From Acidobacteriota bacterium (GTDB lineage: Bacteria; Acidobacteriota; Terriglobia; UBA7540), in contig QHZO01000015.1 in the NCBI GenBank assembly GCA_003224695.1, forward strand, positions 7,190 through 45,840: a stretch of DNA of 38,651 bases, in the 5' to 3' direction. Of this stretch, positions 30,315 to 32,477 are shown one piece after another (the stretch's first letter is position 1; every line of letters begins with the position of its first letter). The position numbers were made by a program, and so were the translations under genes. A model generated the notes under the pieces. It had not been told where the DNA came from, ran no database searches, and saw nothing but the letters and a program-made list of their open reading frames with translations.

Positions 30315-32477
30315 ATGATCCCAAAAGAAGTGGCCCACTACCGCATCCTCGAAAAGCTTGGCGCCGGAGGCATGGGCGAAGTCTATAAGGCGGACGATAC
30401 GACGCTCGGCCGCGCGGTCGCCCTCAAGTTCCTGTCGAACGTAGGGGCGATTCATGAATCGCCCCTACAGGACCCGCAGGGGCTCGAGCGTTTCCGGCGC
30501 GAAGCGCGGGCCGCGGCGGCGCTCAACCATCCGAACATCTGCACGATTTACGAAATTGGCGAGCACGAAGGCCAGCCTTTCATTGCCATGGAGCTGCTGG
30601 AAGGCGAGACGCTGAAACAACGCATCGCCGTAGGGGCGGGCCTTGTGCCCGCCCTCCGACGCCCAGAGGGCTCAGGAGGGCCCGCGTCCATTCCATCGGG
30701 GCCCGCCCAAGGAGGGCGCCCACGAGGGGCGCCCCTACAAATTGACGCGCTGCTCGAGCTGGCCATTGAGATTGCCGACGCCTTGGATGCCGCCCACCAG
30801 AAGGGCATCGTCCATCGCGATATCAAGCCCGCGAACATCTTCGTCACCTCACGGGGACACGCCAAGATTCTCGACTTTGGCCTGGCGAAGATTACGCCTA
30901 CCCTCACCCCCGGCCCCTCTCCCGCAAGCGGGCGAGGGGCGCAAGGGTCGAACAATATTTTCCCCTCTCCCGAAGCGAGAGGGTGGCCCGGAGGGCCGGG
31001 TGAGGGAGAAGCCGCGACTGCGACGATTGAGCCGGAATACCTGACCTCGCCGGGTACAGCCATGGGCACGGTCGCTTACATGTCTCCCGAGCAGGCCCGG
31101 GGCGAACAACTCGATGCGAGGACGGACCTCTTCAGCTTTGGTGCAGTCTTGTACGAAATGGCCACTGGGCGGCCGGCCTTCAGCGGCACCACTACAGGCG
31201 TCATCTTCACCGCGATTCTCAAGGAGAGTCCGCCCAGCGCCAGCCAACTCAATCCCGACCTCCCGCCGAAGCTCGAGGAAATCATCCACAAGGCGCTCGA
31301 GAAAGATCGCGATCTGCGCTATCAAAGCGCCGCCGAGGTGCGGACCGACCTCAAGCGCCTGAAACGGGATACGACGTCGGGGCGCGTGGCGACTGCTTCT
31401 TCTTCTGGTGCCGCGGTCGCGGAGCCCCAATGGCCCGCGCGGCCGAGGGCGGCAAAGTATGCGGCTCTGGCCATTGGCATCGTGACGCTTGCGGCCATCG
31501 GCGCATGGCTTTGGCTGCGCTCGAACAAACCGGGCTCGCCGGCTTCCGCCGAATGGGTCCAGCTCACCGATTACACGGATTCGGCCACCTCGCCGGCGCT
31601 CTCCCCCGACGGGCGCATGCTCGCCTACATCCACGGCCCTGATACGTTTGTCACGCCAGGACAGGTCTTCCTCAAGCTCCTTCCCTCCGGCGAGCCCAAG
31701 CAACTGACGCACGACAATATGATGAAGATGAGTCCGGCGTTTTCTCCGGACGGCTCCCGCGTCGCCTACACCACCGTAGACCCCAAGTTCGGCTGGAACA
31801 CTTGGGTTGTTCCCGTGCTCGGAGGAGAAGCGCAGGAACTGCTCCCGAATGCTTCCGGCATGTCTTGGAATGGCAACAATCACGTGCTTTTCTCCGAGTT
31901 CAAAATCGGCATCCACATGGCGCTGGTAACCGCCCGGGAGAGCCGCGAGGGCGAGCGGGACGTCTATGTCCCGCCGCACGAGCGCGGGATGGCCCACCGC
32001 TCGGCGCTCTCGCCCGACGGCAAGTGGGTGTTGGTGGTTGAAATGTCGAACGGCGGTTGGCTGCCTTGCCGCCTCCTGCCCTTTGATGGAAGCTCGTCTG
32101 GGAAACAGGTGGGCCCTCTGAAAGCCGCATGCACTGCCGCGGCTTGGTCGCCGGACGGCCGGTGGATGTACTTCTCCGCGGATGCCGGCAAGGCGTTCCA
32201 CATTTGGCGGCAAGAATTCCCGGACGGCTCGCCGGAACTTCTGACCTCGGGCACGAACGAAGAAGAGGGCGTGGCCGTGGCGCCCGACGGGCACTCGCTG
32301 GTCACCTCGGTGGCAAGTCAGCTCGGAGGGTTCGGCCTCCGCCCCCTCGTTCTCTCCGGAAGGCAAAAAGCTCTTCTTCCCGGTCAAAAAAGGAGCGGCC
32401 GGATTGTTCGAGTCCGGCGAGCTCTGGGCCATGGACCTTCGAACCGGCGAGACCCAACGGGTCCTGCCTGGGTTTGA
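30315..32477 (+). CDS. PknB-type Ser/Thr kinase with transmembrane helix and TolB-like propeller (N-terminal part)
   Basis: The kinase domain has all core motifs: GAGGMGEV (16-23), catalytic Lys38 in [14 protein letters not shown] (167-174), DFG (187-189) and [10 protein letters not shown] (251-260). Residues 382-402 form one membrane helix, after which WD40/PD40-like propeller blades follow ([41 protein letters not shown]), so the kinase is cytoplasmic and the propeller outside, as in many acidobacterial sensor kinases. Three segments (about 43-52, 106-142 and 196-232) are translations of palindromic DNA elements and have no counterpart in typical kinases. The frame loses sense at about 32320, where the propeller continues in another frame (32404-33147); the last 50 residues are read-through. 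Start ATG 30315 has only GAGAA upstream. Confidence 0.88.
30441..30468. repeat. Perfect 28-bp palindrome inside the kinase coding region
   Basis: GTAGGGGCGATTCA is followed directly by its exact reverse complement. It encodes part of the segment VGAIHESPL in the loop after the catalytic Lys strand, replacing what is normally a short E/D-rich turn. Ends are those of the GTAGGGGCG family. Confidence 0.85.
30630..30738. repeat. GTAGGGGCG-family element (109 bp) inside the kinase coding region
   Basis: Begins GTAGGGGCGGGCC and ends GGGGCGCCCCTAC, with several internal inverted repeats. It adds about 36 residues ([17 protein letters not shown] onward) between helix D region (TLKQRIA) and IDALLELA, where related kinases have only three to six residues. 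The frame is kept. Confidence 0.8.
30901..31006. repeat. Third palindromic element (106 bp) in the kinase activation segment
   Basis: Arms CCCTCACCC (30901-30909) and GGGTGAGGG (30998-31006) enclose two hairpins (CTCTCCCGCAAGCGGG, CTCTCCCGAAGCGAGAG). It encodes [15 protein letters not shown] onwards, about 36 residues between DFGLAK and the GT-YMSPEQ motif. It is a different family from the other two inserts and keeps the frame. Confidence 0.8.

Follow-up and report, generated by a model that had tools for sequence, protein, structure and literature searches.

Palindromic repeats that are read in frame within bacterial genes have been described before. GTAG-REPs have in-frame intragenic copies in Opitutus terrae, Thauera, Xanthomonas and others (PMC3733652; Di Nocera, De Gregorio, Rocco 2013). 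These copies lie in varied genes and mostly at different sites, the exception being recB, which is occupied at about the same site in two Xanthomonas; the GTAG of this class is unpaired (PMC3733652). RPEs (Ogata, Claverie), as PMC3733652 and PMC10969869 characterise them, are in-frame palindromes of ~150 bp in unrelated genes and not in fixed loops of one protein family. In RAYT/TnpA-REP systems, a Y1_Tnp gene is accompanied by GTAG-type flanking repeats.

Here we analyse a window of 38,651 nt containing a Ser/Thr kinase gene with three palindromic elements in frame (Table 1). Elements 1 and 2 share with the published GTAG-REPs the GTAG end, the short palindrome, the dimers, a mostly intergenic distribution with some in-frame copies, hosts in DNA repair, and single as well as double inserts per gene. 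They differ from what was published (PMC3733652) in being concentrated on one protein family and on the same three loops, in involving several element families and many paralogues and species, and in replacing native codons. With RPEs, as the same sources describe them, they have in common that palindromic repeats are translated in frame inside protein-coding genes, while they differ in sequence, in host phylum and in length, single units measuring 28-58 nt here versus ~150 bp. By that description they appear to work like RPEs, and we do not claim membership. The initial annotation knew such in-frame palindromes from Rickettsia; the kind was rightly recognised, but it had already been reported outside Rickettsia (PMC3733652). 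In-frame palindromes as a kind are thus known, and what is new is that the same three kinase loops are used over and over and that element families are exchanged in them; we found no report in the literature of REPs recurring in kinase loops.

Table 1. Features of the window, with positions counted from its first nucleotide.
Feature	Positions	Strand	Remarks
Extragenic GTAG..CTAC element of the same type	28737..28788		52 nt; the MR_MLE gene takes its stop codon from the TAG of this element
Enolase-superfamily (MR_MLE) gene	28785..30014	-	
Short palindrome TCCGTCGGCTGACGGA	30102..30146		two copies upstream of the kinase
Ser/Thr kinase ORF	30315..32477	+	kinase domain, TM segment, PD40 propeller
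Element 1, site 1 (beta3-alphaC loop)	30441..30468		perfect 28-nt GTAG-type palindrome, read VGAIHESPL(Q)
Element 2, site 2 (alphaD-alphaE loop)	30630..30738		109-nt GTAG..CTAC, read VGAGLVPA...GAPL(Q)
Element 3, site 3 (activation segment, DFG to P+1 region)	30901..31006		106-bp CCCTCACCC..GGGTGAGGG repeat, translation ending ...GPGEG
Region of the frame break	32300..32420		break near 32310
ORF continuing the propeller match	32404..33147		
MiaA (IPP transferase) gene	35220..36458	-	
Decayed GTAG palindrome GTAGGGGCGGGTATGAAACCCACCCCTAC	36238..36266		in frame just ahead of the conserved MiaA start
Extragenic GTAGCGGC..GCCGCTAC element	38546..38613		68 nt

All three elements announced by the initial annotation are present and in frame, and the first is, as stated there, a perfect palindrome, whose single-strand DNA fold has a z of -7.4 against shuffles. 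The arms of element 2 are 82% complementary over 28 nt (fold z -4.05). In element 3 the outer arms pair perfectly over 9 nt (at 73% over 22 nt), and there is an internal 13-nt hairpin; with a fold z of -2.3, equalled by 3 of 200 shuffles, it only modestly beats shuffled sequence and is therefore the weakest and least certain palindrome of the three. The grouping of the first two elements with intergenic repeats, and of the third apart from them, was also borne out. Elements 1 and 2 start with GTAGGGGCG and end with CGCCCCTAC, placing GTAG at the palindrome end; unlike in the published class, these perfect palindromes leave GTAG able to pair with CTAC, and they may be read as fused inverted dimers. 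Element 3 has no GTAG end and, by its own ends CCCTCACCC and GGGTGAGGG, is assigned to a separate, CCCTC-type repeat family. Rfam gave no match.

The host protein is a PknB-type kinase according to its catalytic Lys, HRD, DFG and APE-region motifs and its kinase fold; the TM segment is read from sequence and the propeller consists of PD40 repeats. In the AlphaFold2 model the PknB-like core is confident and the inserts appear as low-confidence loops (residues 44-47, 110-134 and 193-248) in the beta3-alphaC loop, the alphaD-alphaE loop and the activation segment, in agreement with the loop positions first proposed. Fold comparison returns PknB as the nearest solved structure, with the fold and the catalytic motifs in common; in the sequence alignment with PknB the extra residues at sites 1-3 are found in the window kinase only. 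The ORF has a frame break near 32310, in the propeller, with ~17 residues missing by comparison with a homologue in genome G017, and past this point the propeller match runs on in another frame. The break, either real or assembly-derived, lies downstream of the kinase domain.

Judged from the alignments, this is not a one-gene case: the three loops are reused across many paralogues and species. We aligned 46 kinase domains from the same genome and its relatives, defining site 1 as following VALKFL, site 2 as following the alphaD helix (LKxR[LI]) and site 3 as DFGLAK to LTSPG. Across this alignment, in which the catalytic motifs do not vary, the same three loops are repeatedly filled by different families. 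Over the intervals used, empty loops are constant in length (13 aa at site 1, 16 aa at site 2) and filled ones measure 19-48 aa. In related acidobacterial genomes at least six palindromic families fill the three loops and the juxtamembrane linker in frame, among them VGAIHESPL (28 nt), VGAGLVPA (52 or 109 nt), VGARGARP (55 nt), VAAVYDRR (49 nt), VEEHLHGAP (58 nt) and RGALRAP (48 nt), and further loop families are the CCCTC family and an AT-rich repeat (KTKIETG.., KTKMEIRNSK..). The AT-rich repeat occupies the alphaD-alphaE loop (site 2) in kinase L037 and in L302 and L305, which belong to a diverged kinase subfamily of the sister genome G001; since it fills this loop in distant kinases, the hot spot is used by non-GTAG repeats too.

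Strict GTAG elements were then located in 57 kinase ORFs (132 kb) and assigned to sites by hand. All 32 lie at sites 1-3 or in the linker (site 1, 5; site 2, 10; site 3, 12; TM linker, 5), and none was found in the catalytic core or the C-terminal domain of these ORFs. The three loops make up ~6% of the length and hold 27 of the 32 elements (binomial p ~5e-28), a value to be read knowing that most of these ORFs were retrieved for their similarity to the window kinase, whose subfamily is thereby over-sampled, and that related inserts among them are not independent.

The GTAG elements are also multicopy and dispersed outside the kinases. GTAGGGGCG occurs seven times in the window versus 0.27 expected, and the pattern GTAGGGGCG-N0-30-CGCCCCTAC has 24 copies in the 4.62-Mb genome, against 0 for a reversed-pattern control. 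Thirteen copies are intergenic or at a gene edge, ten are in frame inside ORFs, as the initial annotation had suggested looking for, and one was left aside. The in-frame copies lie in two kinases and eight other genes, which include those for RuvC, Mfd, MutS2, ribosomal protein L30, EtfA and an FAD-binding protein; two hosts without a Pfam match look like a YfhO-type membrane protein and a TonB-like linker protein. For some of these eight copies, which sit in linkers or at a protein terminus (for instance the RuvC C-terminus and the N-terminus of the FAD protein), the start codon or the gene call is doubtful. In an unbiased 555-kb sample, 20 of 21 GTAG..CTAC elements were intergenic or at a gene edge, genes in the samples being called with a simple hexamer model made for this analysis. 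Element 3 is rare in its own genome, of which the 653 kb sampled (14%) held no other CCCTCACCC..GGGTGAGGG copy; its family recurs in kinases of relatives.

Two other palindromes of the window deserve mention. As the true MiaA start is probably downstream, the decayed palindrome GTAGGGGCGGGTATGAAACCCACCCCTAC may be 5' untranslated. The short palindrome TCCGTCGGCTGACGGA has 32 matches in 653 kb of the same genome, one of them nested in a GTAG element on contig C284.

The initial annotation spoke of inserted elements. The empty loops of paralogues and relatives show that they were acquired; the insertion was not clean, however, because native loop codons were replaced, ~10 nt being lost at element 1 and ~13 nt at element 2. 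At site 2, GTAG types of 49, 52, 55, 58 and 109 nt have identical junctions, each lacking the same 13 nt of native loop. At site 1 the native loop is short of 10 nt with both the 28-nt and the 49-nt type, whose junctions differ. Outside the kinases, the 28-nt element of EtfA adds only 4 residues relative to 14 relatives, all of one length there, and the net gain is ~2 residues in MutS2, 6 in the YfhO-like protein and ~3 in Mfd. Since a clean 28-nt insertion shifts the frame, surviving insertions must also lose or gain bases. The codon loss may come either from the insertion mechanism or from later compensation.

Turnover is best seen in near pairs, which we take as the main evidence for it because the quick tree of 46 rows, giving at least 27 changes of state at site 2, has 23 of its 43 inner branches weakly supported. 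Paralogues L049 and L046 of genome G020 are 93.9% identical over the 280 nt upstream of site 2, where the former carries a GTAG element and the latter a CCCTC element; their site 3 inserts are unrelated, and the boundaries are sharp. The CCGCTACC end of the CCCTC insert is possibly a remnant of an earlier GTAG element. Similarly, kinases G000:C20 and G001:C174 are 79% identical over 2.2 kb and have site 1 filled in one and empty in the other. A close homologue in G017 has a decayed, non-palindromic version of insert 1. An orthologous segment without palindromic DNA would refute the idea of an added element, and this is a weak case of it, though the empty paralogues still show the addition.

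Because ORFs found by similarity are biased, enrichment in kinases was assessed with all genome-wide matches to GTAGGGGC-N8-38-GCCCCTAC in G001, which belongs to the same genus. These matches are 32 elements: 15 lie between genes or at a gene edge, ten in kinases and seven in other genes. Kinases (~27 genes, ~1.5% of the genome, with their bases estimated at ~2.6 kb per gene) therefore hold 10 of the 17 intragenic elements (binomial p ~5e-14), or 7 of 14 once apparently shared inserts are collapsed (p ~2e-9). The remaining hosts are a Mu-type portal protein, a Mu-like I protein, DNA polymerase B, a TPR protein, MnmG, an Eco57I-type methylase and a protein read as mannose-6-phosphate isomerase; beyond the kinases, no gene family had more than one of the elements examined in the two genomes. 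A random-contig test (960 kb, two genomes) had no power because the sample held only two kinases. Repair, replication and tRNA-modification genes are among the hosts of both genomes (RuvC, Mfd, MutS2, DNA polymerase B, MnmG), and the repair-gene hosts echo the repair-gene bias of GTAG-REPs in PMC3733652. A Mu-like prophage on contig C51 of G001 contains five GTAG palindromes in ~8 kb, unusually dense for this genome, two of them in frame, in the portal and I-protein genes.

The mobiliser is probably a RAYT-type Y1 transposase. The genome of the window kinase has two Y1_Tnp genes, one of which (L032, a candidate RAYT) is flanked by GTAGCGCC..GGCGCTAC repeats. No GTAGGGGCG repeats were found beside either gene, and the GTAGCGCC-type flanks are a sister type of the kinase GTAG elements, which leaves the link to the GTAGGGGCG family putative. 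As to the spread, we scanned for DFGLAK-N0-27-GTAGGGGC, a strict pattern that misses other element types. Among 396 genomes across the phylum it was found in the window's own genome only, and GTDB-wide it matched 12 stretches, from ten Acidobacteria/Terriglobia MAGs, one Aminicenantes and one Verrucomicrobia. The Verrucomicrobia match has no palindrome and was discarded as chance. In the Aminicenantes kinase (L127, from a MAG), sites 2 and 3 both contain GTAG-type sequence read in frame, and the other readable kinases of that genome appear empty. With nearly all matches in Acidobacteria/Terriglobia and one genome in 396, this form is concentrated in the window's family.

The explanation we favour, and consider probable, is that mobile REPs were captured at permissive loops and turned over there. 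On this view, small palindromes able to move, GTAG-type REPs in the case of sites 1 and 2 and a distinct CCCTC type in that of site 3, would have spread in this acidobacterial group, and an expanded PknB-type family would have taken them up in frame, time and again, at three exposed loops. Capture would swap out a few native loop codons, and the opened loop could then be refilled by other elements, so that paralogues would come to differ in the insert found at a given position. Once translated, the inserts probably form flexible loops and would not disturb the catalytic core; they would be retained chiefly through the tolerance of these loops and copied with gene duplication, and any tuning of the activation loop would be a by-product. 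Tolerance alone does not obviously explain why strict GTAG elements are absent from the C-terminal sensor domains, which are more than half of the protein, nor why other gene families have single hits among the elements examined in the two genomes, and the constant length of the empty loops at sites 1 and 2, as aligned, would be unexpected if these loops were freely tolerant. The absence from the C-terminal domain and the constant loop length, together with the concentration of elements in three loops around the active site, the different contents of near-identical paralogues and the use of the same loops in the Aminicenantes kinase and in the diverged G001 subfamily, would suit a reading in which REPs are useful ready-made loop cassettes whose capture and exchange alter activation or regulation, partner choice or insulation among paralogous kinases. 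We hold this to be rather unlikely, given that inserts decay in homologues without visible sequence conservation (site 1 in G017), that many kinases of the same genomes are empty at these loops and that the same elements are found in the unrelated RuvC, MutS2 and EtfA.

The identical site 2 junctions of five GTAG types could instead point to target-like loop DNA, which would direct insertion either through microhomology with the ends of the REP or as a sequence targeted by the transposase; the right end of the REP is read as PL(Q/P), the native loop there as PL(K/P), and MutS2 of G001 has a native GTAG at the junction. However, a scoring of REP ends along kinases with empty sites 1 and 2 made neither site stand out, and non-GTAG families enter the same loops while the site 1 junctions of the 28-nt and 49-nt types are unlike, so that such guidance seems improbable. 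Chimeric joins of the assembly at repeats, or a decaying pseudogene whose inserts have ceased to matter, might be suspected from the named source genomes being MAGs and from the out-of-frame break of the window gene. We regard this as very improbable in view of the many genomes involved, long open frames of 700-1081 aa, invariant catalytic residues and the kinase L048 of G023, an assembly of ~70 contigs, with all three loops filled. Almost no weight is left for inserts native to the kinase that merely happen to have palindromic DNA, despite the high GC of the genome and the modest fold of element 3: loops are empty in paralogues and relatives, and for the GTAG elements the reversed-pattern control (0 versus 24 genome-wide core copies) and the shuffles exclude chance palindromes.

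For annotators and structure predictors, our results are a caution that peptides like those read from these elements are repeat-derived when met inside proteins. In-frame REPs have so far been mostly scattered cases, and here one family is hit repeatedly. A regulatory benefit of the kinase inserts is possible, and the system permits direct tests of tolerance versus adaptive loop remodelling and of frame-preserving codon replacement by a palindrome. In summary, in a group of soil Acidobacteriota, kinase genes rebuild loops near the active site from apparently selfish DNA, and these loops offer a natural experiment in how selfish DNA turns into protein sequence.
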